This document shows, piece by piece, positions 23,401 through 46,129 of a stretch of 64,000 nt of DNA. Below the pieces are notes generated by a model. It worked only from the letters and a program-made list of their open reading frames with translations. It did not search any database and was not told where the DNA came from. Every line of letters starts with the position of its first letter. The stretch's first letter is position 1. A program made the translations under genes and the position numbers. Origin of the DNA: Bacteroidia bacterium (lineage in GTDB: Bacteria > Bacteroidota > Bacteroidia > Flavobacteriales > Flavobacteriaceae); NCBI GenBank assembly GCA_030430535.1, contig JAUIKY010000002.1, positions 1-64,000 on the forward strand. Direction: 5' to 3'.

Positions 23401-23506
23401 ATTGCAGGTAATTCTTAAATATATGATAAATCTTAATCAATGCAATCGATTATTTGTTAAATATAAAATTGTATTAATGCTTCTGCATCCTGTACCTACC
23501 TGCAAT
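23401..23506. repeat. Inverted repeat ATTGCAGGTA flanking the repeat-protein promoter
   Basis: ATTGCAGGTA at 23401-23410 recurs as TACCTGCAAT at 23497-23506. The second copy abuts the ACAGGAT box of this promoter with a 10-bp offset, and the first lies downstream of the -7 box, so a looped or two-site binding arrangement is possible. Inference only. Confidence 0.4.
23458..23493 (-). promoter_or_regulatory. ACAGGAT-N21-TATATTTA promoter of the T9SS repeat protein gene
   Basis: Minus strand: ACAGGAT (23493-23487), 21 nt, then TATATTTA (23465-23458). A GCAGGTA half-site lies 10 bp upstream. The expected leader is about 90 nt. One of five promoters in the locus with the same layout. Confidence 0.65.
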
Positions 23507-23580
23507 CTAACTTAACATGGATGAAATGCTTGCTTTTAAGGATAAAAAACTTACTAATAAAGAATTTATTGAAACAAAAA

Positions 23581-23619
23581 TCCCCTATATCTCAATAGCT
23601 GCTTTAGAGACATAGGGGA
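23581..23619 (-). terminator. Terminator after the esterase-GH43 gene
   Basis: Stem TCCCCTATGTCTC paired with GAGATATAGGGGA (one G-T position), followed on the minus strand by TTTTTG. It closes the long hydrolase operon, 27 bp after its last stop codon. Confidence 0.75.
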
Positions 23620-23645
23620 CGATTTTTTTTCAATCAAAAAACAGT

Positions 23646-25445
23646 TTACTCTTGATTCAATTTTATCAATAAAGATTCTGGAATTTTAAAAACCGTTCCG
23701 TGGCGTGTACCTTTTGGAAATTCGATTTTATTCGAAATGTCCTCCCAATGTTTCAGGTCATCAGATTGAACAGCACCATACTTGTGTTCGGTATACTTAT
23801 CAAAATAAACCACCCATTTCCCATCAATTTTAACAGCGGTAGGACCTTCTGCCCAATATTTTCCCGTGATAGGTTCACTAGCCTTTGAGTACGGGCCTGT
23901 AAGTTTATCCGCAAATGCTACCTTTAAATTTTTCCTAACGGGCTTTTTGGTTTCATCTTTTAGAAACATCACGTATTTATCACCTTCTTTTTGTATGGTG
24001 GCATCAATAACGTTAAAACCGGGGTCGTAAAGTAATTTTGTAGGTGCGAACGTTTCAAAGTCCTTGGTGGTGGTATAATACATTCTGTGATTATAACCAG
24101 AATCTTCTTCAATCTGTGTTTCTGGGAATTTCCCAGTAACTGTACTTGCCCAGTAAATCATATATTCTTTATTGGTACCATCATAAGTTATTTCAGGGGC
24201 CCAAGTGTTACGTGTACCCTCCTCATGTGCCATTACAGGAATAAATTTTTGTTCAGACCAATTCACTAAATCTTTGGAGTTAGCGTAACCTATGCCCTTA
24301 TCGGTCCAACTTACCGTCCATACCATGTGGTAAAGGCCGTCGCCACCTTTTATAATACAAGGGTCGCGCATCAATTTATCCTTTCCTACTTCGGGTTTTA
24401 AAAAGGATTTATCATTTTTCAACGATTTCCATTTATATCCGTCTTCACTGTAAGCCAAATGCAAACCGTCCTCTCCATTACCTTTAAAATATGAAAACAT
24501 GTAGATTTCTTTTTCTGGAATGAAATTATGGGCTATCAGCCATTTTTCACAGGCTTCTGGCCAATTGAGGTGTGTACCGAATCTACCAAGTCCGTAACCA
24601 TGGCCTCCATTTTCATAAATATGCATCTCTGCAGGAACCTCGTTTTCTTTTAAAGCCAAATAATAATTGATACTGTTTTCAACGGGAACGGCATGGTCAT
24701 CTGTTGAATGGATTAAAATGGTTGGCGGTGTGTTTTTATCCACCTGTTTTTCGTTGGAATATTTTTCAATAAGGGCTTCGGAAGGATTTTTTCCCAATAA
24801 ATTTTCCTTTGAGCCGTTATGGGTAATGCCATCCTCCATGGAAATAACCGGATAAATCAACATAGAAAAATCTGGTCTCGCACTCGTTTGATCGGCATCA
24901 TAAACATCATCGTTGTAATGTGTTGAGGCTGTTGAAGCCAAATGCCCTCCTGCCGAAAAACCAATAATACCTATCTTTTCGGGGTCAATATTCCAATTTT
25001 TAGCATTGCGCCTTACTGTCCTGATAGCCTCTTGTGCGTCCTGCAATGGGCCAATGGTTTTGTTTTCCATAATGGCATCGCTGGGCAATCGGTATTTTAA
25101 AACAAATGCTGAAACGCCGATGGAATTTAACCACTCGGCCACCTTATCACCTTCTTTTATATGCGACAAGATGCCATAGCCGCCTCCAGGACAAATTATT
25201 ACTGCCGCATTAGCCGTGTTATTGTTATTTGCCAAAAACACTTTCAATGAGGGCTCTGTAACTTGCCTTAATCCATTAATATTACCCTTGGAATCCTTTC
25301 TGAAACTTGGGACATAATCCTTGTTTTCAATAGAATTAGGTACTTTTTTCCAAAGATTTACTTCCTTTTCATTTTGTGCAATTATGCCATTTGAAAATCC
25401 GAAAATAAAGGCCATTAAAATAAGAGCAGTATTAAATTTATTCAT
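23646..25445 (-). CDS. Two-domain enzyme: alpha/beta-hydrolase esterase fused to GH43-like glycosidase
   Basis: A 599-residue protein with a signal peptide (1-about 23). The N-terminal esterase (about 50-310) shows CPGGGYG oxyanion region, GFSAGGH nucleophile elbow, HSTDDHAVP acid region and GGHGYG catalytic His, as in BD-FAE/acetyl-xylan-esterase-like enzymes. The C-terminal five-bladed GH43-like domain (about 318-599) shows MRDPCI (general base Asp), WAPE, VIDATI (pKa Asp) and WAEGP (general acid Glu). It would remove an acyl group and a sugar, possibly arabinose, from the same side chain. Last gene of the hydrolase operon, 42 bp after GH2. The exact GH43 subfamily is not resolved. Confidence 0.82.
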   Translation of the reverse strand: MNKFNTALILMAFIFGFSNGIIAQNEKEVNLWKKVPNSIENKDYVPSFRKDSKGNINGLRQVTEPSLKVFLANNNNTANAAVIICPGGGYGILSHIKEGDKVAEWLNSIGVSAFVLKYRLPSDAIMENKTIGPLQDAQEAIRTVRRNAKNWNIDPEKIGIIGFSAGGHLASTASTHYNDDVYDADQTSARPDFSMLIYPVISMEDGITHNGSKENLLGKNPSEALIEKYSNEKQVDKNTPPTILIHSTDDHAVPVENSINYYLALKENEVPAEMHIYENGGHGYGLGRFGTHLNWPEACEKWLIAHNFIPEKEIYMFSYFKGNGEDGLHLAYSEDGYKWKSLKNDKSFLKPEVGKDKLMRDPCIIKGGDGLYHMVWTVSWTDKGIGYANSKDLVNWSEQKFIPVMAHEEGTRNTWAPEITYDGTNKEYMIYWASTVTGKFPETQIEEDSGYNHRMYYTTTKDFETFAPTKLLYDPGFNVIDATIQKEGDKYVMFLKDETKKPVRKNLKVAFADKLTGPYSKASEPITGKYWAEGPTAVKIDGKWVVYFDKYTEHKYGAVQSDDLKHWEDISNKIEFPKGTRHGTVFKIPESLLIKLNQE

Positions 25446-25487
25446 TTTTTATAAGTTATATTTTCTAAAAACTAAGGTGATTATTTT

Positions 25488-28475
25488 CTATTTGAGGCTT
25501 TCGTAAAATTCGATTTCAACAATTCTTAAATGCCCTTTTATCTCTGCTGATTTTTCATCTTTAAACATGTCCAATTCCTTGTTCGAATCCACCTCAACGA
25601 TTTCATTAAAGGCATCGCTATCGGTGTTTGCTCCAATCAGCTCAATGGTGATTTCTTTTGCTAAAACCGGTTTTAAGGGCAGTGTAATATAACCAAGGCT
25701 TCGCTCGGTATCGCCTTCAAAAACCACTTGATTATCTGCTAATATACGAATTGGATAGCTTTTTCTGCGCCATCCCGTAAACTTTACAACACACTGGTTT
25801 ACCTCTGATGGTTTGGTTAAATGATAGCTTATTCTTCCTGTTTTTATTCTCCCATCATTGCGCCATTCGGTCAACTCGTTGTCGTCAAAACTTTGGTAAA
25901 CCGTTTCCGGATTCGAAATTGAAGTCGCATAACCGATATGTACCGGTGTTCTCTTTAAAGTATAGGATGGCGTTTTGGGTGTTGACCCCCTATCTAAATA
26001 GGACGGTAAATTATCGCCCGGCAAATTTTCCGACCAACCATTTAAGCTTCTCGTTTCATTTGTAGTTAAACTGACTTTTGCAGATTTTAATCCTTTTGAT
26101 TTTGCTGTAACGGTTACCTTTCCAGCCTTAAAACCAGAACGCACTAAAACCCTATTAACACCATTTTCAACAGGCAAATTCTTGGAACCGACGTAATTGT
26201 TTGGTCCTTTGGCAATGCCTCCTAGCCAAGTGGCATTGCCTTTTAACGAAAATTCGATTAAACTGTTATCAACAGGACAACGATTACCGTTTTTATCGAC
26301 TACTTCAACCTCAATAAGGGCCACATCAGCACCGTTGGCCAAAAAGCCTTTTGGAGAAGTATATTTTGTTAGTTTAATTTGAAAAGGTGTCCCTGAAGTG
26401 GTTTTTGAAGCCTCACTGATTACCTTTCCATTTGAATTATAACTGACCGCTTTTATGCTACCTGCCTCAAAAGGAACGTTTTCAAAAGTGAACAAAAACC
26501 GCTTACTCTGTTTACCAAATCCTTTAGATTTTCCGTTAACGAACAATTCCACTTTGTCTCCGGACGAAACCACGTAGATGTTTTTTACTACATCTTTGCC
26601 GTAGTTCCAATGTCCTAAAATATGGCTGCGATGCTGCTCTATATCTACCCAGCCATCCCACATCACTTGGTGGGCAAAAAATCCATCCTTTGGAATGCGC
26701 ATGGGGTCTACCTCTCCACTTGTACGGTAATTGACTTCACCGCGGTGATGGGTATTGGTATCTGAAAAAATGATATTCACCCCACCTGAGCTTACGCGGT
26801 GCCCAGTCCCCGGACGCTCTACGTAATAATCATACCACCGGGTAATATTTTCTATGGCATGGGCATCTTGATTATGATTGTAGTCCTCGGCAGGCTTTCC
26901 CCTGTAAAGTGGTCCGTCGCCTTCTTTATGGAATGGAGGGGAATATTCATCCCAATATTTTCTTAAGCCCTCATCCCTAGAGTACTCGGTGGCCCAAAGC
27001 GGCTTTCCGGCACTTTTGTTTATGTAAAGCATTTCGCCACCGTATTCGGCTTCCCGACTGTCAAGCATTTCGCGAGAACCAATGGCACGACCGCCATGCG
27101 GATCGTAGGTGTTTCTCAAGCTTTTCATTTCGAACATGTGGGGTTCACTTATCACTTCATTACCACATTCATAAAAAATTATACTCGGGTTGTTGCGGTT
27201 GTAAATAATAGCATCGCGCATAAGCGCTACGCGCTGACGCCAATGGTCTCCTTGCGAATCTTTTTCTGCATCGCCTGCGGGCATAGCTTGCATAAGCCCT
27301 ACCCTATCGCAGGATTCTATATCTTGTTTCCATGGGGTAACGTGCATCCAACGGACTAAATTGGCATTACCTTCAACCATCATTTTATTGCTGAAATCGC
27401 TCAACCAAGGCGGTACCGACATGCCTATGGCCGGCCACTCGTTACTGGTTCGTTGGGCATAGCCTTTTATTTGGATGACCCGGTCATTTAAAACCACTTC
27501 GCCGTTTCTGAAGGCTGTTTTTCTAAACCCTGTTTTGGTACTGACTTCATCCACAACTGTTCCATTGATTTTTAAGGAACTTTTTACGGTATATAAATAG
27601 CCATAGCCCCAGCTCCAGAAATGTAAATTATTAAGCTTTTTATGAGCTTTTAATATTTTGGTCTGGTTAGGTTCAAGTTCCATATTTTGGGAATCGAACT
27701 CCGCCACCTTTTTATTGTCAATATCGTAAACCTCAACAATAAGTTGCACTGATTTATCTCCATCAAATTCATTTTTAACTTCAGCCTCAACATGCACGTT
27801 TGCGGTGGCACTATTGATATCTATATTTTTTGCATAAACGTAAACGCCCGTTGTTTTTAAGTTAGAATACAGCGGTAAGGTTTGATATATTTTATTCGTA
27901 ATGTGCAAAAACACATTTTTTGGAATGCCACCATAATTGGCATTAAAGTTAGTATTATTCCAACGGTATGTGGCATTGGTTGCCGTTTCACGGTATTTCC
28001 AATCATTATCGATACGAAGTGCAATAACATTATTAAAAGGATATGGCTTGACGTGTTCTGAAATATCAAAACCAAAAGCCATGACCCCGTTTTCGTGCAT
28101 GCCGACTTTTTGACCATTAACATAAACGATACCACCTTGACGGATGCCTTCAAACTCAACAAACACTTTTTTATTCTGGGCGTTGTCAGGAAGTTTAAAG
28201 TTTTTCCGGTACCAAACAATACCTGTTGTTAAATCGATAATATCCTTCTTAAACGCTTCATGCTGGTTATAGGCATAAGGTAGCGTAACGGTTTGCCAGT
28301 CGTTATCTTGAAATTCAAAATTCACGGCATTTGGATGCTCTCCCGTCTTAAATTTCCAATCGGAGTTGAAGTTTAACTTAACTCTTTTGAATTCTTGTGA
28401 ATGCAATTGGAGTACGCTGAAACTAATAGAAAAAACCAAACAGACATTTATTAAAGTGTGCTTAAAACTATGCAT
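25488..28475 (-). CDS. GH2 family glycoside hydrolase (beta-galactosidase/beta-glucuronidase type)
   Basis: A 995-residue secreted protein with signal peptide (1-about 26). The sugar-binding domain (FNSDWKFKTGEHPNAVN, VFVEFEGIRQGGIVYVNGQKVG) is followed by an immunoglobulin-like domain and the TIM barrel. Likely catalytic acid/base Glu in FYECGNEV (about 437), nucleophile Glu in LWATEYSRDEG (about 494). C-terminal beta domains (about 640-800) and an extra discoidin-like module (about 850-990) follow. It probably removes beta-linked galactose or glucuronic acid from pectin side chains; the sugar cannot be decided by eye. Starts 2 bp after GH115. Confidence 0.88.
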   Translation of the reverse strand: MHSFKHTLINVCLVFSISFSVLQLHSQEFKRVKLNFNSDWKFKTGEHPNAVNFEFQDNDWQTVTLPYAYNQHEAFKKDIIDLTTGIVWYRKNFKLPDNAQNKKVFVEFEGIRQGGIVYVNGQKVGMHENGVMAFGFDISEHVKPYPFNNVIALRIDNDWKYRETATNATYRWNNTNFNANYGGIPKNVFLHITNKIYQTLPLYSNLKTTGVYVYAKNIDINSATANVHVEAEVKNEFDGDKSVQLIVEVYDIDNKKVAEFDSQNMELEPNQTKILKAHKKLNNLHFWSWGYGYLYTVKSSLKINGTVVDEVSTKTGFRKTAFRNGEVVLNDRVIQIKGYAQRTSNEWPAIGMSVPPWLSDFSNKMMVEGNANLVRWMHVTPWKQDIESCDRVGLMQAMPAGDAEKDSQGDHWRQRVALMRDAIIYNRNNPSIIFYECGNEVISEPHMFEMKSLRNTYDPHGGRAIGSREMLDSREAEYGGEMLYINKSAGKPLWATEYSRDEGLRKYWDEYSPPFHKEGDGPLYRGKPAEDYNHNQDAHAIENITRWYDYYVERPGTGHRVSSGGVNIIFSDTNTHHRGEVNYRTSGEVDPMRIPKDGFFAHQVMWDGWVDIEQHRSHILGHWNYGKDVVKNIYVVSSGDKVELFVNGKSKGFGKQSKRFLFTFENVPFEAGSIKAVSYNSNGKVISEASKTTSGTPFQIKLTKYTSPKGFLANGADVALIEVEVVDKNGNRCPVDNSLIEFSLKGNATWLGGIAKGPNNYVGSKNLPVENGVNRVLVRSGFKAGKVTVTAKSKGLKSAKVSLTTNETRSLNGWSENLPGDNLPSYLDRGSTPKTPSYTLKRTPVHIGYATSISNPETVYQSFDDNELTEWRNDGRIKTGRISYHLTKPSEVNQCVVKFTGWRRKSYPIRILADNQVVFEGDTERSLGYITLPLKPVLAKEITIELIGANTDSDAFNEIVEVDSNKELDMFKDEKSAEIKGHLRIVEIEFYESLK

Positions 28476-28477
28476 AG

Positions 28478-31384
28478 TTACTCTTTTGATGTTTTATTAA
28501 TTATTGTTTCAGGCATTATGGAATACGGGATACTCTTTTTTGTGCTCAGCACAACGTAATCCAAAAGTACTCCTGCATCTACTGCAAAAATTTTCAGGGT
28601 TTGCTTTCCTTTATTTTTAATAGCTACATTAAGGTTTTTTGTAGCCTTATTGGTCAGAACATTTTGTTTCCATTCTGAACTCCTTCCGTGCGTTTTAAAA
28701 TTCATCATTTGTATGGGTTCCTCGTTCCACTGCACGGCTATGCGCACTTCTCCGTCGGTTGTCAACGGATGCGTTGGAATGGCAACGAGCTGCAATGCGG
28801 CTTTGTCCGTAATGGTTTCGGCGTAAATCTCATAGGTTAGTACCGGAGCTTCTGAATGCTCTAAAACCGAAGTACTGCTTAATGGCAGTGCCTGAACTAC
28901 GGCTTTGGTGTGCCACAATCCTTGGTAGGTTTTCCAATGCTGATTTTCGCTCGCTATATTTTCCGAAAAATTTTCAGCATAAACCACCGCCAAACCGTTT
29001 TTTTCAACAATACTATTCAAGGGAACTTCAGAATAACTGTTTGATACGTTTACTTCTATTTTTTCGATTTGCTCTCCCAGTTTTAAAGTAACCATTCCGT
29101 TGGTTGGTACATTTTCATTATTCCAGATATCCCAGTTTACAGAAAAGTAAATGCGCTGTTCTAAATGCTTTTCATTAAAAACACCCTCTAATTGGCTTGC
29201 TTGCAACCACTTTGGCAAAGATTGAATGTGCCATAAGGCCTCTTTTGCGGATTTTAAGTATACATCTACAAAATGTCTTTTATCATCATTTACATAAAAT
29301 GTGGGCATTTGATGGATGTTGTTTACAACTAAAGTGTCTTCAACCGAAATACCTACCGCATCATTCGATTTTATCGCGGGAATATTCACGGCTGGATTTT
29401 CAAAAACCGGCAATTTTCTGGGAGCCATGTCCATGATTCCCTTCCATTTTCCATTGGAAATGTTATTATATTCTTGCGTTAGGGTAATAATATTTTCATA
29501 CGCATCATTGACCAGCGTCTTGTATTTTTGAGCACTTTGTCTGGATTGGTCTGCATAAGTTAGAGCCTTATCTCTGTACAAAAACTTTTTGTTCATATTA
29601 GAAGCCGCTTTAACTGGGTAAGCTACCAGTTGCGTAAAGGTTGGTTTGTATTTATCTTCCAACTGAAGTTGTATTTTATCTGCCTGTTCTTCCAAGTTGG
29701 AATACACATCAATACGTTTTTGAATTTCGTCACCGAAACTTAAAGCATTGTAATCTGATTTATAAATAGGTGTTGTTCGCTCGGTTTGGCTCCAACCCAT
29801 AAATTCGGGTTTCCTTTCAAAAGCCAATTGATAATAATGCTCTTTTATGTCTGCTATTTTACTGCCCAATTCATCTCCAAAAATGGTTTTGAAAAAATCC
29901 TGTTGATGGGTTTTTATAGAATTTGGATTCTGAAACTTCTCCGCATCATAGGCCATATCCATAAAAAGTTGGGTGTTATACTCTGCCGGTTTGATGTCTC
30001 CAACGTTTAAAATCCAAATTTCTTTGTTATTTAATTGGTAGGCCTTCATCATTTCCTCTTGGATTAAATACGGATTGGTGCTACTTAACCATAAATAATC
30101 GTGCGGTCTTCCCCAATATGAAGCATGATAGTACACACCGCCACCGCCAGCTCGTTTTTGCTCTTCTTTGTTGTTCAATGCCCTAATGTAACCATAGTTA
30201 TCATCAGTCCATACTAAGGTAATATCTTCTGGCACTTCCAGTCCATTTTTATATAAATCCAACACCTCTTTGTATACGGTGAAGGCCTGTGGTACTTTTG
30301 TAGGGTCTTCATTAATGTACTTTTTTATAAGTCCTCTTTGGTCTTTAATGATACCGTTTAAAAGTTGTACCGCCTCATCTTTGCCTTTTACACCTTCCAT
30401 GCCACTATCATGAACACCGCGCATACCCATAGTATAAATGCCATCGATGTTTTTAGCCTCCTTTACCCGGTTTTCCCAGTAATTATACACTTGGTCTTTA
30501 TTGGTTTTGTAATTAAAAGCTCCGAATTTCGTTTTGTCCCATTCATCAACATTATTTCTTAACATGGGTTCGGCATGTGACGAGCCGATAACAATATTGT
30601 AAAGATTAGCCATTTTAGCATTGCCCGGATAATGAAAAAAGGCTTTGGTACTTGGGTGCATGGCTGGCCAAATGGTGTTGGCATTTAATCGGAGAAGGAG
30701 TTCGAAAATTTTGGAGTAGGTTTTCGGACCTATATCGCCCGTTTCGGGCTCAAAGGTTTTTGCTGCCCAGGGTTGTAAGCCCCAATCTTCATCATTTAAA
30801 AAGATACCGCGGTATTTTACCGATGGTGTTTTGCTGAAATAATCCTGCTGATTTAAAATGAGTTCATCTTGTTTTTTCACCGGTACATCGGCCCACCAAT
30901 ACCAAGGGCTCACCCCTATTTGCTTTGAAATATTGAACACACCATAGGCGGTTCCTCTGGGGTTTGTTCCAGCAATCACAAAGGCTTTGTCGATGTTTTT
31001 ATTCGGATTGGCAACCGTTTTATACAGGTAACTTTCCCATTGTCTTTTAAAAGATTCCTCTACACTTTTCCTTTTTTTCAGAAATTTGTTGATTAACGCT
31101 GAATTCATTTCACCAATAACAATAACGTTACCTTTGGCTTCTTTAAGGTTGGAAATGACTTTTGGTTTATACCCTGTAACTTTAAAAACGTCTTCGGCTA
31201 AGAAATGAGCAGTAATGGAATCTAGCGGTGATGTCGTTTTATCAAATAAAATAACGGCCTGATGCTTAGATGTATAAATTTCAAAAGTTGGGTGTTTTGG
31301 GAGTTCGTGAGCAGAAAAACCAAATGCACAAATAGTCTGAGACAATACCAAACAAACAACTAAAAATCTTAAAACGTTTTTCAT
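28478..31384 (-). CDS. GH115 family glycoside hydrolase (alpha-glucuronidase type)
   Basis: A 968-residue protein with signal peptide (1-about 22). GH115 features: N-terminal alpha/beta domain with NVIVIGEMNSALI and GTAYGVFNISKQIGVSPWYWWADVP, then the barrel with KYRGIFLNDEDWGLQPWAAKTF, LLLRLNANTIWPAMHPSTKAFF, GSSHAEPMLRNN, YTMGMRGVHDSGMEG and LVWTDDNYGYIRALN, plus C-terminal beta domains. Known members release alpha-1,2-linked (methyl)glucuronic acid from xylan; others act on glucuronic acid of plant arabinogalactan or pectin side chains, which would suit this locus. It is directly downstream of a GH43 gene (1-bp gap). Confidence 0.9.
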   Translation of the reverse strand: MKNVLRFLVVCLVLSQTICAFGFSAHELPKHPTFEIYTSKHQAVILFDKTTSPLDSITAHFLAEDVFKVTGYKPKVISNLKEAKGNVIVIGEMNSALINKFLKKRKSVEESFKRQWESYLYKTVANPNKNIDKAFVIAGTNPRGTAYGVFNISKQIGVSPWYWWADVPVKKQDELILNQQDYFSKTPSVKYRGIFLNDEDWGLQPWAAKTFEPETGDIGPKTYSKIFELLLRLNANTIWPAMHPSTKAFFHYPGNAKMANLYNIVIGSSHAEPMLRNNVDEWDKTKFGAFNYKTNKDQVYNYWENRVKEAKNIDGIYTMGMRGVHDSGMEGVKGKDEAVQLLNGIIKDQRGLIKKYINEDPTKVPQAFTVYKEVLDLYKNGLEVPEDITLVWTDDNYGYIRALNNKEEQKRAGGGGVYYHASYWGRPHDYLWLSSTNPYLIQEEMMKAYQLNNKEIWILNVGDIKPAEYNTQLFMDMAYDAEKFQNPNSIKTHQQDFFKTIFGDELGSKIADIKEHYYQLAFERKPEFMGWSQTERTTPIYKSDYNALSFGDEIQKRIDVYSNLEEQADKIQLQLEDKYKPTFTQLVAYPVKAASNMNKKFLYRDKALTYADQSRQSAQKYKTLVNDAYENIITLTQEYNNISNGKWKGIMDMAPRKLPVFENPAVNIPAIKSNDAVGISVEDTLVVNNIHQMPTFYVNDDKRHFVDVYLKSAKEALWHIQSLPKWLQASQLEGVFNEKHLEQRIYFSVNWDIWNNENVPTNGMVTLKLGEQIEKIEVNVSNSYSEVPLNSIVEKNGLAVVYAENFSENIASENQHWKTYQGLWHTKAVVQALPLSSTSVLEHSEAPVLTYEIYAETITDKAALQLVAIPTHPLTTDGEVRIAVQWNEEPIQMMNFKTHGRSSEWKQNVLTNKATKNLNVAIKNKGKQTLKIFAVDAGVLLDYVVLSTKKSIPYSIMPETIINKTSKE

Positions 31385-31385
31385 C

Positions 31386-32999
31386 TTAAATACTGTTTTT
31401 TACGAATTCAACATCATCAATTTGACAACTAACATTTGATTTTCCATCTGCATAAAAACCAATTTCTACCTTTCCGTTTTTTACTTCTACGTTATTCAAA
31501 GTGAATTTTGTCCAAATGCCATTTTCCGCTTCAACGGAATGTCTTTTTTGTACCCCGCCACTTTCGGCATACATTTCCAGTTTATTAAACTTTGAATTGG
31601 TTTTGATTAAAGCCGATAAATTATAGATTCCATTGGGCAATTCAACAAATGGTGTCGATTCTATTATTTGATAGACTTTGCGCTTAAAAGGCACTTTGTC
31701 TTCAATATTTAAACTTTTTTCGCCAATAACGGTTTGACGGTCTTCGGTGGTATTAAAATAATTCAACTGTGGCGATTCATCTTCTCCAACAACTACTGTG
31801 TTTCCTTGGTAAATGTGCGTTACCCAACCCGTAATATGTGCTTGGATAGGTTTTACAGGCGACGGGATAACTCTACGGTCGGCCTCAAAACTAGGGTTTT
31901 TAACATAATTATTATTTTCGGCTACTTTCCACTCTCCAGTGGTTTCATTTAATTTCCAAGAATTTAACGAGTTAAAATAAGGAATGTCTTCTTGGAACGA
32001 CATTGGCACCCACTGGTTATACCCCAAACCGTTGCCAGCAAAATCGGCCCATCGATCGCCACAATACACTACCGTTTCTTGTTTTGTACCTTTTACATTT
32101 ACAAAAAATCCGGTTTGTGTAATATGGGCAAAATCGTCGATACACCCAGGTGTAATCAGCATCTTATTGGTCGGTTCATAAGGCCCTTTAATATTGTTGG
32201 ATACCAAATAATAAGCATATGATGAATCCCAACCATATAAATTAGAAGCGTATAAATAATACTTGCCTTGGTATTTAAACATGCAATTGCCTTCCCTTCC
32301 TTTGCCCTTAAAAACTTGGGTACAATCCAGCAAGTCTACTTTTCCATCTTTATTAACACCAATCTCAGAAATGTAAATTTTATGACGCCCCTTTCCGTAG
32401 GAATACACCAAATAGGATTTCCCCGTATCGTAATCGGTAAATACGGTTTGGTCTCCAGTATTGGGTGTGCCAATTCTATCGGTCATGTCCAAGCGGTTAT
32501 GTTTTTTAAAATCTCCGACAGGTGAATCGCCCAAAGCAATTAAAACACTATTGTTATGTTGGATAAATAGCGCGTATTGTTCCTTTTCGGGGATAAAAGC
32601 TACGCCCATGCGCCCTAACCATCCGGTGCGCCCATTATTTTCAACTTCCTCCTTTAAAAGCACGTTGTTTTCAAAAGTCCAATTCACCAAATCGGTCGAA
32701 CTGTAACAACTCACGGCAATAAAATTATTTCTCTCGTGCGTAATGGCAGGATTATCTCTATACAACTCGGCTTCTTTATAGTGCACGCCATACCAAAAAT
32801 ATTTTTCTTCGCCTGTTTTGGGGTCTGGAAATCTAAAAATGCCGCCACCTTGGCTATAAATAGGCTTACCGCTAACGGTATCCCAAAACTGGTCGTTTTT
32901 GATATTGTTGAATTGCGCTATCACTACGTTCGAGAAGAAAAACGATGCTAGCAATGCAACAAACCATAATTTACTAGACTTGATTTTTTTTAAGTTCAT
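31386..32999 (-). CDS. GH43-like glycosidase with C-terminal carbohydrate-binding-like module
   Basis: A 537-residue protein from ATG 32999, where the signal peptide MNLKKIKSSKLWFVALLASFFFSNVVIAQ begins. An upstream in-frame ATG (33044) would overlap the previous gene and precede the signal peptide, so I reject it. The N-terminal five-bladed domain (about 30-370) has GGGIFRFPDPKTGEEKYFWYGVHY, SSTDLVNWTFE, NTGDQTVFTDYDTG and MFKYQGKYYLYASN, similar to exo-beta-1,3-galactanase-type GH43 enzymes. A beta-sandwich module (about 385-537, VKNPSFEADRR, FKRKVYQIIES) follows, like CBM-type ligand domains. Substrate probably a galactan side chain; uncertain. Confidence 0.8.
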   Translation of the reverse strand: MNLKKIKSSKLWFVALLASFFFSNVVIAQFNNIKNDQFWDTVSGKPIYSQGGGIFRFPDPKTGEEKYFWYGVHYKEAELYRDNPAITHERNNFIAVSCYSSTDLVNWTFENNVLLKEEVENNGRTGWLGRMGVAFIPEKEQYALFIQHNNSVLIALGDSPVGDFKKHNRLDMTDRIGTPNTGDQTVFTDYDTGKSYLVYSYGKGRHKIYISEIGVNKDGKVDLLDCTQVFKGKGREGNCMFKYQGKYYLYASNLYGWDSSYAYYLVSNNIKGPYEPTNKMLITPGCIDDFAHITQTGFFVNVKGTKQETVVYCGDRWADFAGNGLGYNQWVPMSFQEDIPYFNSLNSWKLNETTGEWKVAENNNYVKNPSFEADRRVIPSPVKPIQAHITGWVTHIYQGNTVVVGEDESPQLNYFNTTEDRQTVIGEKSLNIEDKVPFKRKVYQIIESTPFVELPNGIYNLSALIKTNSKFNKLEMYAESGGVQKRHSVEAENGIWTKFTLNNVEVKNGKVEIGFYADGKSNVSCQIDDVEFVKNSI

Positions 33000-38400: not shown

Positions 38401-38409
38401 TATGTTTAG

Positions 38410-39666
38410 TTAGTGTTTCTTAATATCAACGGCATAAATTTGTGAGCTCCCCTCAAAATTAGCCCTAAAAATGATTTGTTTACCCTCGGGAGAAAAGTGC
38501 ACATTGGGCTCTAAATCGTAATCGTGGTTTTTCATGTTTACCAATTTTGTAGATACCAAACTATCACCTTTTGGTTTAAAATGATAGATCCACATACCAT
38601 CCTTGGCATGAGCTACTTGCCCCGGGTCGCCTCCATCACCGGCAAACGTATTTTGGTCTGGCGATATGTTATAATGAATGGACCATTCGTCTCGTTTTAA
38701 TCCATAGCGGGTTTCCTCTCCAGTTTCAATGTTTTTACCAGCGAGGTAAAAAGTTACGCTTCGCGGTATTTGCAAATCGAACCAAATGGTATTACCATCA
38801 CGACTGAAAAATTCGTGCCCCGCGATTTCGCGTTCAACACTTCTTTTGTGCATCAATTGATTTTGTTTGGTTTTAATATTTATGGTCCAAATACGGTCTA
38901 CTTTATGCCACGGCCCTTCATGACAATACATCAATAAATCAGGGTCTGTGGGTGAAAATTGAATGTGGTTCAACCAAGCATTTTCAGAATATATATTGGT
39001 GAGTTCTCCCGTCTTTACATCAAGTGTAATTAAGCTCCTTTCGAGTTTGGCTTCATAAATTTTATCGAAATAACTGGATTTTGATGGATTTTTTCTGAAA
39101 ATTTCGTTTTCTTCCTTGGTTATCAATGCGCCGCCCAAAAGTGTTTCATCAGCATTTAATGTGGTCACAGAGCCAATAACTTCATCATCAAATTTATAAA
39201 TAAACTTGGTTTGGTGCGTATCGATGTGTGTGGCAAAAACGCTATCGTTAACCATATAATATACTTTTCGCGTTTTGGCTCCCACTATTTCGCCGCGCTT
39301 TCTTCCCTGCTTATTGGTTATTTGATCTATTTCCTTGGTTTTTAAATTGATGGAAAAATATTGGCTTCCGGTTTCTGTATCCCCCGAAAACACCATTAAA
39401 TCGTCTTTGCCATCTTCCGATTTTAAAAAAGGATTATTATGAAAATAAAAACTGCGGTTATCGCCTTCCCTGTTAACCAATTTTTCAACTTTATGGCCTG
39501 TGCTCGAATCTATCCAAACCTTAGCCAACGAGCTTTCTTTGGAGGTTTCCATCATGGGAACTTCTGAAATAATTTCGGAAGATACATTATTGGTAGTTTC
39601 CGATTTGTTCTTACAGGACAAACAAAACAGAACCAATAAAACCGGTAAAATTTTTCGACAATTCAT
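38410..39666 (-). CDS. Oligogalacturonate lyase, PL22 family (lipoprotein)
   Basis: A 418-residue lipoprotein (LFCLSC, lipid on Cys 18) with a seven-bladed propeller. PL22 segments: STGHKVEKLVNREGDNRSFYFHNNPF, QYFSINLKTKEIDQITN, HIQFSPTDPDLLMYCHEGPWHKVDRIW, AGHEFFSRDGNTIWFD and LEPNVHFSPEGKQIIFRANFEG. The His residues in these blocks are those used to hold Mn in the family. It splits unsaturated digalacturonate to 5-keto-4-deoxyuronate. It has its own ACAGGAT promoter with two boxes 10 bp apart and heads the long hydrolase operon. Confidence 0.92.
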   Translation of the reverse strand: MNCRKILPVLLVLFCLSCKNKSETTNNVSSEIISEVPMMETSKESSLAKVWIDSSTGHKVEKLVNREGDNRSFYFHNNPFLKSEDGKDDLMVFSGDTETGSQYFSINLKTKEIDQITNKQGRKRGEIVGAKTRKVYYMVNDSVFATHIDTHQTKFIYKFDDEVIGSVTTLNADETLLGGALITKEENEIFRKNPSKSSYFDKIYEAKLERSLITLDVKTGELTNIYSENAWLNHIQFSPTDPDLLMYCHEGPWHKVDRIWTINIKTKQNQLMHKRSVEREIAGHEFFSRDGNTIWFDLQIPRSVTFYLAGKNIETGEETRYGLKRDEWSIHYNISPDQNTFAGDGGDPGQVAHAKDGMWIYHFKPKGDSLVSTKLVNMKNHDYDLEPNVHFSPEGKQIIFRANFEGSSQIYAVDIKKH

Positions 39667-39681: not shown

Positions 39682-39727
39682 TAAAGATAAAATGTATCGC
39701 TATAATCGCTATCCTGTTGCATCCTGT
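39682..39727 (-). promoter_or_regulatory. Double ACAGGAT promoter of the PL22-led operon
   Basis: Minus strand: ACAGGAT (39727-39721), GCA, ACAGGAT (39717-39711), 21 nt, TATCTTTA (39689-39682), then about 15 nt to the ATG. The two boxes are exact direct repeats with a 10-bp period. It sits in the 75-bp gap between GH28 and PL22. Confidence 0.7.
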
Positions 39728-39741: not shown

Positions 39742-41115
39742 TTAAGGCAACACACTTAAATCCAACACATTTTCATGTAAAAACTTTTCACCAATAATGG
39801 TATCGACCTCCACATGGTCTAAAACAATATTCTTTACGGGAAGTTCTTCCTGTCCTGTTATTTTAGAAAGGTACTGTGCCTTGGTGGCCTTTACGTTTTT
39901 GAGGTAAACATCCTGTATGGGCGTTAATTTACGCTCAATGGTAGGCACTAAATCACGCCATTGGTAAAGCACATCGGTCTCAATGCCTAAAACGCCATTT
40001 TTTATACCGCCGCCCGATACGTTCTCAACATAAATATTCTTAACGTATCCGCCACGACGCTCGTTGGTTTTGATGAACACCAAGTGGAACATTTTGGCAC
40101 CATCGACTACTTTACAGTTTTCAATAAATACATTTTCGATTCCACCGGATAGTTCGCTGCCAATGGCGACCAACTGATGCCCGTTTTTCATGATGCAGTT
40201 GCGCATTACTATGTTTTTTGATGGTGTGTTCAATCGCCACGCATCTTGGTTACGCCCAGATTTGATGGCAATAGCATCGTCGCCTTGGTCGAAAACACAG
40301 TTTTCAATCAATACATTTTGGCTCATTTCTGGGTCAACACCGTCGTTGTTATGGCCATGGGCATAAACATTCAAATTTCTTATGACCACGTTTTTTGACA
40401 GATAGGGATGGATGGACCAAAACGGACTGTTTTCGATGGACACACCATCCAATAAGATATTTTCGCTTCGGTTGAACTGGATGAACTGCGGACGGAAATT
40501 GGCCGTATCGTTCACCATTTGGCGCTCCTCGACAGGCTTGTTGTACGATGCCAAGTTGTAAAGCCGTTTTAAACTGTTCATATGCGGTTCGGGGCGCGAA
40601 AACCATGTTTTCCAAACATCCATTTTGGCCTTCAGTTTACCTTCGCCAGTAATGGCTATATTTTTACAGTTATAAGCATAAATTAACGGCGAATAATTGT
40701 AGCACTCCATGCCTTCCCATGTGGAATGCACCGCAGGCAGATAGTCTTTTGGGTCTTCAGAAAACAATAACACCGCCCCTTTTTCCAAATGGAGGTTAAC
40801 ATTGCTCTTAAAATGTATTTTTTTGGTTAGCCATTCGCCCTCTGGAATGACTACGATTCCCGCCCCTGCACTGTTGGCCTGGCTTATGGCTCTGTTAATG
40901 GCTTTGGTAGTGGCTTCTTTATCACCCTTAACTGCACCAAAATCAGTAATTACAAATGTTTCACTATCACTAAAATCAGGGATTGTTATTACCGGCATTT
41001 CAAATGGAGCTACTACTTGTATGTCTGTGGTCTTTACCTCTACTTTCTGTTTTTCTTGTTTACACGAAACTGTAATGACTATAGAGAGAATGAATAGCGG
41101 CTTGAGTAATTTCAT
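39742..41115 (-). CDS. GH28 family polygalacturonase (lipoprotein)
   Basis: A 457-residue lipoprotein (ITVSC, lipid on Cys 19) with a right-handed beta-helix. FVITDFGAVKGDKEATTKAINRAI is the typical GH28 opening. Active-site blocks: HNNDGVDPEMSQNVLIENCVFDQGDDAIAIKSGRN (about 253-290, with the catalytic Asp residues) and KNGHQLVAIGSELSGG (His of the GHG region, here GHQ). It hydrolyses galacturonan, probably from oligosaccharide ends given its location with PL22 and GH105. It is the first gene left of the SusC divergent promoter. Confidence 0.92.
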   Translation of the reverse strand: MKLLKPLFILSIVITVSCKQEKQKVEVKTTDIQVVAPFEMPVITIPDFSDSETFVITDFGAVKGDKEATTKAINRAISQANSAGAGIVVIPEGEWLTKKIHFKSNVNLHLEKGAVLLFSEDPKDYLPAVHSTWEGMECYNYSPLIYAYNCKNIAITGEGKLKAKMDVWKTWFSRPEPHMNSLKRLYNLASYNKPVEERQMVNDTANFRPQFIQFNRSENILLDGVSIENSPFWSIHPYLSKNVVIRNLNVYAHGHNNDGVDPEMSQNVLIENCVFDQGDDAIAIKSGRNQDAWRLNTPSKNIVMRNCIMKNGHQLVAIGSELSGGIENVFIENCKVVDGAKMFHLVFIKTNERRGGYVKNIYVENVSGGGIKNGVLGIETDVLYQWRDLVPTIERKLTPIQDVYLKNVKATKAQYLSKITGQEELPVKNIVLDHVEVDTIIGEKFLHENVLDLSVLP

Positions 41116-41141: not shown

Positions 41142-41177
41142 TAAAAATAGCACTCTAAACCTTAAACACTATCCTGT
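41142..41177 (-). promoter_or_regulatory. ACAGGAT-N21-TATTTTTA promoter of GH28
   Basis: Minus strand: ACAGGAT (41177-41171), 21 nt, TATTTTTA (41149-41142), 26 nt before the ATG. The sequence just upstream, GCATAATACC, is nearly shared with the sulfatase promoter (GCATACC), on the opposite strand of the locus. Confidence 0.65.
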
Positions 41178-41309
41178 GGTATTATGCTTTTTAGATTTTC
41201 GCAACAAACTTTTAGAATAAAAAAAAATCACAAAACCTGCTTAGATCCCACAAAACATATATTTTAACGAGGTGAAAAGTATGAAGTGTAAGAATAACAC
41301 CGTGTAAGT

Positions 41310-41345
41310 ACAGGATGGAATGAAGACAATCCATTTTTAGTTTTA
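41310..41345 (+). promoter_or_regulatory. ACAGGAT-N21-TAGTTTTA promoter of susC
   Basis: Plus strand: ACAGGAT (41310-41316), 21 nt, TAGTTTTA (41338-41345), 30 nt before the susC ATG. Together with the GH28 promoter it makes the 260-bp divergent control region of the locus; the stretch between (41178-41309) shows only AT-rich sequence. Confidence 0.65.
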
Positions 41346-41375: not shown

Positions 41376-44300
41376 ATGAAAAACAAAATGTCTCTTATCT
41401 TGAGTCTATTGGTGTTTGCATTAATGTACACATCGGTCTACGCTCAGGAAAAAACTGTTACCGGAACGGTAACGGACGAATCTAACATGCCTTTACCTGG
41501 GGTAAATGTTATTGTAAAAAATACGAGCAGGGGGGCTAGTACAGATTTTGACGGAAATTACAGTATTTCTGCCGCCCAAGGAGAAACATTGGTATTCTCT
41601 TATGTTGGTTTTAAAAACAAGGAAATTCCCATAGGTAGTGCAAATAACTACAACGTTTCTCTAGAAACAGACAATGCTCAATTAGATGAAGTTGTCGTTA
41701 TTGGTTACGGAACGCAGAAAAAAACCAGTGTAACTGGGGCTGTAGCCTCCTTTGAAGCTGAAGGGTTAGTGGAAAGACCTTTAGTTAGAATGGATCAAGC
41801 TTTAGTAGGACAATTATCTGGTGTACGGGTTAAGCAAACCAGTGGTGTACCTGGAGCTGGATTTACTATACAAGTTAGGGGTTCGGGCTCAATTACTGCA
41901 GGTAATGAACCTCTATACGTAATTGATGGGTTTCCTTTAGATACAGATGGGCAGCCTTCTAACATAAACCCTAATGACATTGAGTCTATTCAGGTTTTAA
42001 AAGATGCTTCTTCTACCGCTATTTATGGTGCAAGGGGATCTAATGGTGTAGTATTGATCACCACCAAAAAAGGTAAATCTGGAAAGCCAAAAATCACATT
42101 CAACACGTACGCAGGTTGGAATGAAACTGTTAAAAAATTAGATGTACTTTCTGGTGAAGAATGGGTAGAACGCGCCATAGAACACCAAAACTACGCTTAT
42201 GTTAGAAACTTTGGCGACCAAGGGGCTACATCGAGCCATAACAACGACCAAAGACGAGCTATTTTAGGTTTAGGTCCTGATGAAATCAATACTGCCTATA
42301 TGTATGATGAGCGTTGGTTACAGCCTGGGCATCCCGGACTAGACTACGTAGATTGGCAAGACCTTTACTTTAGAAAAGGATTTGTTCAAAGCTACCAATT
42401 ATCAGCTTCTGGTGGCAATGATCAAATCCGCTACTATGTATCTGGTGATTACTCCGACCAAGAAGGTATCGCTGTTGGTGTAAACAACGAACGATTTAAT
42501 TTAAGAGCCAATGTTGAGGTTTCACCAAATGACAAACTTAAATTTGGGCTTAACCTAGCACCCTCTTTCGGTACTATTGAGGATCCGGGTGTTGAAGGAA
42601 AAGATGCCATTACCCATATTATTGTAGGTATGACACCAGTAGTAGAATCTTCGGTTGGTGCGTTGTACACCAATACTGGTGACTTTAGCAGATATGCCTG
42701 GGCAGGAAGTCGTGTGAGTCCATTGGCAGAAGCCACTTTCAACCAGAGAGAAATAAAGCGTTTTAGAAACTTGGCTACCATATTTGCTGAGTATGATTTG
42801 GTTGAGGGGTTGAAATACCGAGGTACAATTAACTCCGATTTACAAATTAACACAGCCACTAGGTTTACTCCATCTTGGATCACCAGAAACAGAAGAGCTT
42901 CGGGGTCTAAATCTGGCGACACACGAACTTCATTTGTAACAGAGCATACTTTAAACTATATGAAATCCTTTGATAAACATAGTTTTAATTTGTTGGGAGG
43001 TTACTCATATAACGAATTTAAATTTGAAGATTATTCAATTGGTGCTACCGACTATGCTGGCGATGACTTAGGAACCATTAATGATGCCCAAACAATAAAC
43101 GGTGGCGCCTCAGAAGAGGTTAAACATGTTTTACTCTCCTACTTTGGAAGATTAATGTATGATTTTGACGAAAAATATTTCTTTCAAGCCACTTTAAGAC
43201 GTGATGGTTCATCAAGATTTGGAGACAATACTAAGTTTGGAACATATCCTTCAGTTTCTGCCGGATGGAGAATTACAGAAGAAGATTTCATGAAAGATAA
43301 TGATATTTTCAATGAGCTAAAACTTAGAGCGAGTTGGGGGCTTTCCGGTAATAATAATATTGGTGATTACAGAGCTATATCCTTACTAAATAACACTAAC
43401 TATAGTTTTGGCGGAAATGTAAGCAGTGGTCTATCGCCTCTAAATTTTGCTAACCCAGATTTAGGTTGGGAACAATCTGAATCAGTAAACATTGGATTAG
43501 ATGTTGGTTTGTTTAACAACAGAATTTTTACATCGTTGGAATATTACACCAAAAGAAATACAGATTTGTTATTGGAAATTCCTGTACCAACCGCAAGTGG
43601 TTTTTCAAGAGCGCTTACCAACATCGGAGAGGTTTTAAATCAGGGTTGGGAACTCGAATTAACCTCAAGAAACTTTGTTAATTCTGATTTTACTTGGACA
43701 ACTAATTTAAACTTGTCTCACAATACCAATGAAGTTAAACAATTAGGCCCAAACAACACGCCTATTTTAGGTGGTGCGTTTGATATTACCCACAATATAT
43801 TGGAAGTAGGCCGCCCCATGTATACCCTTTATGTAGTTCAACAAGATGGTCTGTTAACCACTGAAGATATCAACAATGGTGTAGCTTTATATGGTAACCA
43901 AGAGGCCGGAGACCCAAAATATGTAGACCAAAATGGTGATGGCTTAATTACTCCGGATGATAGAACCTATTCCGGTCACCCAGACCCAGATTATATATGG
44001 GGTATAACAAATACCTTTAAATATAAGGATTTCGATTTATCGGTTCAACTTCAAGGACAATGGGGCGGTAAAATATATTCCACCTTTGGTAGAGCTATGT
44101 ACAGAACCGGCATGGGTATACCCGACAACACGCTTGGATTTGCAAGAGACCGATACGTTTGGCAAGAGGGAGCTGTGGTTACAGAAGCCGATTTGGCTGG
44201 CCACACACGTAAATCGCCTTCTAGTTTTGGGCGAATTAAAAACACCGACTGGTTATACGACAACGACTACTGGAGAGTTAGAAACATTACTTTAGGCTAT

Positions 44301-44489
44301 AATTTGGGCGCTCAATTCCAATCTGATATTATTTCCGGAGCCCGAATTTACTTTACCATGGAAAACTGGTTTGGCGGAGATAAGTACGATGGCGGATTCA
44401 ACCCTGAGGCTGTCAACAATAACGGAGACGACTACGGAGCCTTCCCTCTATCAAGATCCGTTACTTTAGGCCTTAATCTTAACTTTTAA
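41376..44489 (+). CDS. SusC/RagA-type TonB-dependent outer membrane transporter
   Basis: A 1037-residue outer membrane protein with signal peptide (1-23). Order: carboxypeptidase-regulatory-like domain (about 28-100, VTGTVTDESNMPLPGVNVIVK), TonB-box region LDEVVVIGYGTQKK (about 104-117), plug domain with the SusC signature DIESIQVLKDASSTAIYGARGSNGVVLITTKKGK, then a 22-strand beta-barrel ending in LGLNLNF with a C-terminal Phe. It imports oligosaccharides through a pair with SusD, encoded 18 bp downstream. Specificity is inferred from the pectin-degrading neighbours. Confidence 0.95.
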   Translation: MKNKMSLILSLLVFALMYTSVYAQEKTVTGTVTDESNMPLPGVNVIVKNTSRGASTDFDGNYSISAAQGETLVFSYVGFKNKEIPIGSANNYNVSLETDNAQLDEVVVIGYGTQKKTSVTGAVASFEAEGLVERPLVRMDQALVGQLSGVRVKQTSGVPGAGFTIQVRGSGSITAGNEPLYVIDGFPLDTDGQPSNINPNDIESIQVLKDASSTAIYGARGSNGVVLITTKKGKSGKPKITFNTYAGWNETVKKLDVLSGEEWVERAIEHQNYAYVRNFGDQGATSSHNNDQRRAILGLGPDEINTAYMYDERWLQPGHPGLDYVDWQDLYFRKGFVQSYQLSASGGNDQIRYYVSGDYSDQEGIAVGVNNERFNLRANVEVSPNDKLKFGLNLAPSFGTIEDPGVEGKDAITHIIVGMTPVVESSVGALYTNTGDFSRYAWAGSRVSPLAEATFNQREIKRFRNLATIFAEYDLVEGLKYRGTINSDLQINTATRFTPSWITRNRRASGSKSGDTRTSFVTEHTLNYMKSFDKHSFNLLGGYSYNEFKFEDYSIGATDYAGDDLGTINDAQTINGGASEEVKHVLLSYFGRLMYDFDEKYFFQATLRRDGSSRFGDNTKFGTYPSVSAGWRITEEDFMKDNDIFNELKLRASWGLSGNNNIGDYRAISLLNNTNYSFGGNVSSGLSPLNFANPDLGWEQSESVNIGLDVGLFNNRIFTSLEYYTKRNTDLLLEIPVPTASGFSRALTNIGEVLNQGWELELTSRNFVNSDFTWTTNLNLSHNTNEVKQLGPNNTPILGGAFDITHNILEVGRPMYTLYVVQQDGLLTTEDINNGVALYGNQEAGDPKYVDQNGDGLITPDDRTYSGHPDPDYIWGITNTFKYKDFDLSVQLQGQWGGKIYSTFGRAMYRTGMGIPDNTLGFARDRYVWQEGAVVTEADLAGHTRKSPSSFGRIKNTDWLYDNDYWRVRNITLGYNLGAQFQSDIISGARIYFTMENWFGGDKYDGGFNPEAVNNNGDDYGAFPLSRSVTLGLNLNF

Positions 44490-44507
44490 TCAAAAAAAAA
44501 TAGATAT

Positions 44508-46028
44508 ATGAAAAAAATAATATTAATGGCCCTATTATCAGTAATGGTATTTAGTGGCTGTGAAAGTGAGCTTGATCAAGCTCCTATATCGAACAGAAGT
44601 GCTGCAAACTTCTATGATGATGCAGACGACTTCGAACAAGCCATAGTTGGAGTTTATAATGCTCTAGGCTATCATTCAGAATCTCAATTCTATCTATCTG
44701 AAGTGAGGTCTGATAATGTTTATATTGCTGGATTGGCAGGAGTTCGTCCTTGGATTCCAATCACAAATTTATCAAGAACACTTGTTACAAACGATTTAAC
44801 CAGAAATGCTTGGGATGCACCTTATGTGGGTATTTTAAGAGCCAATACGGTATTGGATAAATTAAACGAAACCGCAGTGCCCGATCAAACTACAAGAAAT
44901 AGAATGGAAGGCGAAACCAAATTTTTAAGAGCTTTCTTTTATTTCGACCTAGTTCGATTTTTTGGCGGAGTTCCTTTAATTGATAACATCATTACTCCCA
45001 GTCAAGCATTAGAAGTTCCGCGTGCTTCCACTCAAGAAGTTTATGATCTAATTGTAGCCGATCTAGAAAGCGCAATAAATCTATTGCCAACTACACCTTC
45101 CGTTGCTGGCAGACCCTCATCTGTAGTGGCTAAAGCTCTACTGGGCAAAGTTTACTTAACCATGTCGGGCCCCACATATAACATACAAGGACCTGGTTTG
45201 GGAGTGGATATGACTTCAGAAGCCTTGACCTTATTCAACGAGGTTATTGACAGCGGACAGTTTGGAGATGTGGCCGATTATGCCACCATTTTCAACACGA
45301 CTTCAGAAAACAATGCTGATATTGTTTTTGCAATTCAAAATGTAAATGATGGTAATGGAGGCGACAGAGGTATTGGAACAATTTTACCTACCTTAATGTA
45401 CCACGAGGCATGGGCCAGAGTTAACTTACCTTTTGCCGGTGGTAGTCCTAGCGATGGTATTATTACACCTTCAAATCAAGTTTTAGAGGCTTTTGAACCC
45501 AATGATGTTAGAGACGATTATTCAATTTTAAGAAGTTGGGTCGATGATACCGGTAATACTAGTAATGATGCTATGATTGTTAAGTATTTGGATCTGGATG
45601 AAAATGGCGAACCTATCTCTTCTATCCTGCCAACCGATCGTTTCAATTGGGGCGTAGATTTTCCAGTAATTAGATATACCGATGTATTAATGATGAAAGC
45701 GGAAATTCTTGTAAAAAATGGTCCAAGTCAGGAAGTTGATGATATTGTTAATGAGGTTAGGGAAAGAGCTGGATTAGGTCCCATTTCGAATGTTGATTTA
45801 GATATGCTATTGGCAGAAAGACAAAAGGAATTTTATGGTGAAGGTTTAAGGTTTCACGATTTGGTAAGAACCGGTAAAGTATTAGACGTGATGAACAACT
45901 GGATTGACGTTGACGATACCGCAGATGTTATGAACCAAATGGAGGCTAATTTTATTATATATCCAATACACCAAAACCAATTAGAGGTTAATCCAGGTTT
46001 ATATGACCAAAACCCAGGTTACAACTAA
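44508..46028 (+). CDS. SusD/RagB-type surface glycan-binding lipoprotein
   Basis: A 506-residue lipoprotein (signal MKKIILMALLSVMVFSGC, lipid on Cys 18). The helical SusD fold shows SAANFYDDADDFEQAIVGVYNALG, ETKFLRAFFYFDLVRFFGGVPLI, VAKALLGKVYLTMSGP, RYTDVLMMKAEILVKNGP and LLAERQKEFYGEGLRFHDLVRTGK. It caps the SusC barrel and captures glycan at the cell surface. A strong terminator follows. Confidence 0.94.
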   Translation: MKKIILMALLSVMVFSGCESELDQAPISNRSAANFYDDADDFEQAIVGVYNALGYHSESQFYLSEVRSDNVYIAGLAGVRPWIPITNLSRTLVTNDLTRNAWDAPYVGILRANTVLDKLNETAVPDQTTRNRMEGETKFLRAFFYFDLVRFFGGVPLIDNIITPSQALEVPRASTQEVYDLIVADLESAINLLPTTPSVAGRPSSVVAKALLGKVYLTMSGPTYNIQGPGLGVDMTSEALTLFNEVIDSGQFGDVADYATIFNTTSENNADIVFAIQNVNDGNGGDRGIGTILPTLMYHEAWARVNLPFAGGSPSDGIITPSNQVLEAFEPNDVRDDYSILRSWVDDTGNTSNDAMIVKYLDLDENGEPISSILPTDRFNWGVDFPVIRYTDVLMMKAEILVKNGPSQEVDDIVNEVRERAGLGPISNVDLDMLLAERQKEFYGEGLRFHDLVRTGKVLDVMNNWIDVDDTADVMNQMEANFIIYPIHQNQLEVNPGLYDQNPGYN

Positions 46029-46053
46029 ACTAAAAATTAGTTCTAATTAATTA

Positions 46054-46083
46054 AGCGCCACAATATTAGTGGCGCTTTTTTTT
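46054..46083 (+). terminator. Terminator after susCD
   Basis: Stem AGCGCCAC / GTGGCGCT with a 7-nt loop followed by a run of nine Ts, 26 bp after the SusD stop. It separates the susCD unit from the sulfatase unit. Confidence 0.9.
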
Positions 46084-46093
46084 ACAGCATACC

Positions 46094-46129
46094 ACAGGAT
46101 ACACGAAACATATAAATCAACTAGATTTG
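46094..46129 (+). promoter_or_regulatory. ACAGGAT-N21-TAGATTTG promoter of the sulfatase operon
   Basis: Plus strand: ACAGGAT (46094-46100), 21 nt, TAGATTTG (46122-46129), a full -7 match. A near-copy ACAGCAT starts 10 bp upstream (46084-46090), giving a direct repeat like that of the PL22 promoter. The ATG is 37 nt further on. Confidence 0.7.

Follow-up and report, generated by a model that had tools for sequence, protein, structure and literature searches.

The window analysed here is a 64,000-nt stretch of DNA from a member of the Flavobacteriaceae (C98:1-64000, the start of contig JAUIKY010000002.1, in a genome of 3.64 Mb and 110 contigs) that carries polysaccharide utilization loci (PULs). 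Five of its genes or gene runs are preceded by the heptamer ACAGGAT, which lies exactly 21 nt before a -7 promoter box, and a first-pass annotation had read this spaced motif as the mark of a regulon within the locus. The coordinates and strands of all five sites proved correct. A second element, overlooked in that annotation and read by eye, is located 10 bp upstream of ACAGGAT. The operators, each with its -7 box, are as follows.

23458..23503, minus strand: before the gene of an 853-aa protein, GCAGGTAGGT-ACAGGAT-N21-TATATTTA
39682..39727, minus strand: before PL22 and its eight-gene run, ACAGGATGCA-ACAGGAT-N21-TATCTTTA, with two perfect ACAGGAT copies
41142..41187, minus strand: before GH28, GCATAATACC-ACAGGAT-N21-TATTTTTA
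41300..41345, plus strand: before susC/susD, CCGTGTAAGT-ACAGGAT-N21-TAGTTTTA, with one mismatch against the pattern used genome-wide
46084..46129, plus strand: before sulfatase-GH43-rhaM, ACAGCATACC-ACAGGAT-N21-TAGATTTG

The predicted targets, and the second PUL beside them, are arranged as follows.

20798..23359, minus strand: predicted target, 853-aa protein, no Pfam match
23646..39666, minus strand: predicted target run of PL22, GH106, GH88/105-type, GH43, GH43, GH115, GH2 and esterase-GH43 (Pfam)
39742..41115, minus strand: predicted target, GH28 (Pfam)
41376..46028, plus strand: predicted targets, susC and susD
46167..48886, plus strand: predicted targets, sulfatase, GH43 and rhaM (L-rhamnose mutarotase)
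48952..64000, minus strand: second PUL, with two Pel9A-like, PL1-like, SusD/SusC and fasciclin genes

Gaps inside the PL22-led run do not exceed 84 bp in the list of open reading frames, and the eight genes (39666-23646) probably form one operon. The upstream element of PL22 is a perfect ACAGGAT (39727-39721); that of the sulfatase reads ACAGCAT, that of the 853-aa protein gene GCAGGTA and that of GH28 GCATAAT. The label of the 853-aa protein as a type IX secretion protein comes from the first-pass annotation only, the Pfam scan having returned no match; a 220-aa piece with 51% identity to it is encoded near the rha operon of the genus relative G002 (L146:2-637). The PL22 gene of the same relative (L286) has the same double ACAGGAT, while its site between GntR and GH28 reads ACAGGAC. 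In G117 (L289), sites precede the orthologues of GH28 and the sulfatase, and PL22, located behind GH28, has no site of its own.

The pattern ACAGGAT-N21-TANNTTT matches the window five times, versus none across 100 dinucleotide shuffles. Because ACAGGAT without the spacing condition is found 12 times against 5.6 expected, the signal is the spaced pair and not the heptamer. A scan of the whole genome with this strict pattern, from which the variant cores GCAGGAT, ACAGGAC and ACGGGAT were kept out, gave ten sites, compared with 1.2 expected from composition and none for the reversed-pattern control. A chance origin of the motif is ruled out by the shuffles and the reversed-pattern controls, and the view that the five promoters share one operator is borne out. 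Of the five strict sites outside the window, four precede genes and only one falls in an open frame. They are listed here with one perfect operator from a relaxed scan.

C11: strict site before a PL11 rhamnogalacturonan lyase gene
C50: strict site before the rhamnose operon rhaEW-rhaI-kinase
C98:78129: strict site before a GH28 gene whose best NCBIfam match is rhamnogalacturonidase, below the cut-off
C108:4311-4269, minus strand: strict site and perfect operator before a LacI-family gene (L016)
C82:37267-37233: strict site inside a 97-aa open frame
C107:29614-29572, minus strand: perfect operator before a GSDH (glucose/sorbosone dehydrogenase family) gene (L192)

The C82 site may be the one chance match predicted by composition. 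The relaxed scan insisted on the upstream CA but left the final T of the -7 box free, which yielded 10 perfect and 11 one-mismatch matches, against none in the control and 0.12 perfect ones expected. The added perfect members are a GDSL esterase-GH2 run (C98:76933) and the GSDH gene, and three one-mismatch sites were given targets: susC, another PL11 gene (C40) and, third, a fasciclin gene. The last of these is a GCAGGAT site at C98:70798-70756(-), upstream of the second PUL and outside the window, and it presumably drives the stretch 48952..64000. Overall, the genome targets comprise two PL11 and two GH28 genes, PL22, susCD, sulfatase-GH43-rhaM, GDSL esterase-GH2 and rhaEW-rhaI-kinase. The LacI-family gene on C108 is divergent from a mannonate-type short-chain dehydrogenase/reductase (SDR) gene and uxuA, and no second orthologue above 55% was found in the compared loci; its operator could possibly place hexuronate control below rhamnose in a cascade.

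The regulator had been expected outside the window, and the best candidate is encoded 13 kb beyond it, at C98:76967-78013. The gene is divergent from a GH28 gene, with a site in between, and is the single copy in the genome at E 1e-60. Its product combines a GntR winged helix at the N terminus (PF00392, E 2.2e-14; AraR domain 4egy, E 2.6e-9) with a C-terminal sugar-binding domain (PF13377, E 7.4e-4, under its cut-off). A sequence search of the PDB returned relatives for the DNA-binding domain only, GntR-type winged helices including AraR. An AlphaFold2 model of the L205 orthologue has a mean pLDDT of 90, and its best Foldseek match is LacI (1efa, E 3.7e-13, TM 0.60). By these domain and fold matches, the candidate is a protein of AraR-type architecture, a GntR helix with a GalR/LacI-type sensor, as AraR is described in PMC4494728.

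A phylogenetic profile links this protein to the sites. We picked 72 genomes from roughly 250 listed, 36 of them site-rich (at least four strict sites; three belong to the window's own genus) and 36 site-free, the latter large, near-complete and without a strict site. A GntR orthologue with at least 50% identity is present in 33/36 site-rich and 0/36 site-free genomes (Fisher p 4e-17, uncorrected for relatedness), and rhaEW in 33/36 and 2/36, respectively. In 15 of 18 rha loci the GntR gene adjoins rhaEW or sits one gene off, the L153 copy being a 121-aa fragment. The three exceptions (L139, L146, L147) have GntR elsewhere, and in G117 and G002 it lies within a pectin-type PUL. L134, L137, L141, L143 and L144 have a tandem pair of GntR paralogues near rhaEW. 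In a wider set of 80 named loci, the best 80 of 588 relatives, fetched by protein alone with no condition on sites, rhaEW lies within 10 kb of GntR in 62. Since sites, GntR and rhaEW co-occur, and rhaEW is so often near GntR, the sequence comparisons indicate that the regulon is one of rhamnose and rhamnogalacturonan use and not specific to the locus. The idea of a regulon confined to the locus is not supported: the predicted regulon is genome-wide and recurs in many genera of Bacteroidota.

The own-genome regulators profiled were GntR and the nearest AraC-type protein (C98:87649-88515, about 10 kb from the sixth site), the latter representing the possibility that an AraC-type regulator or a hybrid two-component system (HTCS) controls the motif, as in Bacteroides. 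RhaR, which governs the rhamnose genes of B. thetaiotaomicron, is of AraC type, and AraC and HTCS motifs are described as direct repeats (PMC3870299, PMC3878776). The AraC gene shares the contig, and orthologues of it turn up in 16/36 site-rich versus 4/36 site-free genomes (p 0.003), yet 20 of the 36 site-rich genomes have none, compared with three for GntR. The gene (L012:3649-4515) is followed by SDR, FAA-hydrolase and lactate-utilisation-like genes, HTH_18 has one match on contig C98, a 288-aa protein, and the repeat period of the operator is 10 or 5 bp, not about 21. Control by AraC or HTCS is therefore very improbable, the AraC gene being disfavoured by the profile despite its weak association. 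From the HTCS/AraC, GntR and LacI types that the first-pass annotation had offered, the evidence picks GntR.

Alignment of sites gave the consensus ACAGKAYAGT-ACAGGATAS followed by TANNTTTG, so that the ACAGGAT box is the promoter-proximal part of a longer element. The structure of this operator was examined on a set of 63 distinct sites, drawn from 42 of the 80 named loci and selected without a condition on upstream letters. Position -9 is C in all 63 sites, and CA is found in 44. Scored as direct repeats, these sites reach 0.365 at 10 bp and 0.290 at 5 bp; among inverted arrangements of more than four pairs the highest score is 0.262, over seven pairs centred about position -3, and the sequence on that axis is GTAC-A-GTAC. 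Palindromic operators are usual for GntR regulators; rhaEW promoters show this one strongly, PUL sites less so. An earlier statement that inverted symmetry is absent was reduced to direct being stronger than inverted, as the sites then used had partly been selected by their upstream letters. Tandem binding is favoured over a palindrome because the direct scores exceed the inverted ones; the clear palindrome at rhaEW keeps the matter from being settled.

The distance to the -7 box is strongly preferred. The 80 loci contain 195 ACAGGATR words, 64 of which have TANNTT at spacing 21 and the next most, 10, at 22; with CA demanded at -9/-8, 45 lie at spacing 21 and the next count is 3. The profiled genomes, themselves chosen partly by sites, have 33 distinct CA-N7-ACAGGAT sites in their rhaEW and GntR loci, which were found by protein search; TANNTT follows at 21 in 31 of these sites and at 22 in two. 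A TTG-type -33 element is usual in the phylum. The box occupies this position, as had been noted and as its location makes plain, and it may functionally replace the -33 element. We dropped the argument that TTG is absent from the -33 slot in 120 site-gene pairs (score at least 5/6, near-identical proteins removed, the window's 23493 site left out), as the sites had been chosen by slot letters and could not have shown otherwise. At other spacer positions TTG shows no enrichment, with 1-5 occurrences per position where found against about 2 expected. The dominant spacing would also suit a -35-type element of an alternative sigma factor. However, the downstream box matches the primary sigma consensus TAnnTTTG (PMC9723704), the final G being present in 93% of 56 rhaEW promoters, and such a factor would account neither for the upstream element nor for the co-variation with GntR, which makes this reading highly implausible.

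The same operator and the same GntR protein could also serve repression, with the protein covering the promoter until L-rhamnose releases it. Most GntR regulators repress, and a protein at the -33 position would block the polymerase too. AraR is called a repressor in its PDB entry, a GntR regulator of alginate use in Zobellia is a repressor by the title of its report, and the GntR repressor NanR recognises (GGTATA)3, a tandem repeat (PMC8012715). On the other hand, a repressor site requires no set distance to the -7 box, yet spacing 21 dominates, and activators are described as frequent among those MocR-type GntR proteins whose genes are divergent and whose targets are direct repeats (PMC5320631). 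We thus consider repression unlikely, though deserving of weight, and favour activation because of the dominant fixed spacing. The symmetry reanalysis and the Zobellia repressor slightly lowered our confidence in activation, which stays fairly good, and took the wider activator class proposed at the end from just above even to just below. An activator-dependent promoter, as first proposed, is accordingly the likelier reading of the sequence, with repression as the lesser one.

The comparison extends across Bacteroidota. The genera among the best 80 loci include Flavobacterium, Maribacter, Zobellia, Leeuwenhoekiella, Chryseobacterium, Lewinella, Cyclobacterium and others, and 43 of these loci have an ACAGGATR-N20-TANNTT site. 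Scoring was possible for 61 of the 62 rhaEW promoters, one truncated gene having been dropped; 42 reach at least 18 of 21, among them L223, which lacks a proper -7 box. First genes other than rhaEW number 59 (57 complete ones of 63 from the site-gene pairs, plus two added); the families seen most often among them are 10 GDSL esterases, 8 SusC/TonB plug proteins, 4 sulfatases, 4 PL22, 3 GH28 and 3 GH78-type rhamnosidases. Several rha loci have sulfatase genes nearby, which may point to ulvan-like substrates.

In two genomes the operator core varies together with the regulator. The two site-free genomes with rhaEW encode a diverged GntR alongside (43% and 41% identity to the window genome's protein), and their rhaEW promoters read ACAGAAC-N21-TACTTTT and ACAGAAC-N21-TAGATTT, with the same spacing. 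GntR alignments covered 36 of the 80 named loci, and 16 of 30 loci obtained with a start-motif filter plus the two diverged ones. In the recognition helix both diverged proteins have valine (E58 to V), versus glutamate in 36/36 and 16/16 of the others. An ACGGGAT core occurs in 7 of 8 Chryseobacterium/Epilithonimonas loci; since glutamate is kept in the three aligned proteins from this group, residue 58 does not explain this variant.

Several observations weigh against a rhamnose regulon under the GntR candidate. The upstream element of susC is poor, and the perfect sites before the LacI and GSDH genes fit the regulon loosely. Only 3 of the 11 one-mismatch sites were given targets, the other eight including the C82 site. 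In the profile, G011, G021 and G232 are site-rich with neither rhaEW nor a GntR of at least 50% identity, eight site-free genomes have weaker GntR matches (37-44%), and any gene travelling with rhaEW would co-occur likewise. Finally, 19 of the 61 rhaEW promoters score 15 or less. Of these, 17 come from Flavobacterium with a distinct rhaEW (65-67% identity), and no operator was found for these 17 promoters; L242, counted as a miss, does carry the site when another gene start is taken.

With these points in the balance, the ACAGGAT box is very probably where a sugar-sensing regulator of GntR type binds, one that would control rhamnose breakdown jointly with the degradation of rhamnose-rich polysaccharides in many Bacteroidota. 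It is likely, to our mind, that the chimera at C98:76967-78013 binds the operator and activates rhamnose and rhamnogalacturonan genes from the -33 position. Direct binding, ligand and activation are inferred from sequence, and regulon content points to rhamnose or a derivative as the ligand. In the mechanism we propose, the AraR-type chimera would bind ACAGKAYAGT-ACAGGATAS, an operator that occupies the -33 place, exactly 21 nt before the sigma-A box TANNTTTG. Carrying L-rhamnose or a close derivative, the regulator would contact RNA polymerase, and this contact would switch on the rhamnose catabolic operon together with the rhamnogalacturonan genes.

In Bacteroidota, the HTCS and SusR systems of Bacteroides are the best-described cases of PUL control. 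Among these, the HTCS BT4178 and BT4182 likewise govern rhamnogalacturonan PULs; they differ in being hybrid two-component sensors with a direct repeat of two 14-bp sites around a 6-bp spacer (PMC3878776), whereas here a LacI-sensor regulator would be shared with monosaccharide catabolism. Bacteroides RhaR (BT3768, AraC family) also responds to rhamnose with positive control, but it belongs to an unrelated family, with a single-operon regulon in Bacteroides (PMC3878776) and a 21-bp motif period (PMC3870299). B. subtilis AraR, of the AraR subfamily of GntR regulators, also joins a GntR winged helix to a GalR/LacI-type sensor and controls a sugar pathway plus its polysaccharide genes (PMC4494728). 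In contrast to AraR, the operator here appears to be no simple palindrome and to keep a set distance to the -7 box, with a predicted rhamnose regulon and likely activation. MocR-type GntR activators (GabR, TauR, PdxR) and NanR share the winged helix on direct repeats (PMC5320631, PMC8012715) but have an aminotransferase or other sensor domain, not a LacI-type one. The Zobellia galactanivorans regulator, compared by its title, is a further case of GntR-family control of a flavobacterial PUL, and differs in acting on alginate and as a repressor. The rhamnose regulators in the main text of PMC3870299 are of the AraC, DeoR and LacI families, and neither GntR nor flavobacteria figure in that text. 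No description of the motif or the regulator was found among the open papers that the searches listed; RegPrecise and subscription papers lay outside the search and may already contain a prediction.

We would advance only tentatively, at somewhat less than even confidence, that LacI-sensor GntR activators across Bacteroidota, binding a head-to-tail 5/10-bp repeat that replaces the -33 element, couple a free monosaccharide as signal, rhamnose, to whole PULs for rhamnogalacturonan and probably for ulvan-like sulfated polymers. If true, a LacI-sensor regulator common to rhamnose catabolism and many PULs would explain coordinated pectin-type degradation in environmental and marine Bacteroidota. 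The spaced operator would give a genome-scan rule for rhamnose-responsive PULs, and ACAGGAT, ACGGGAT and ACAGAAC would represent a natural specificity series for GntR-DNA recognition.

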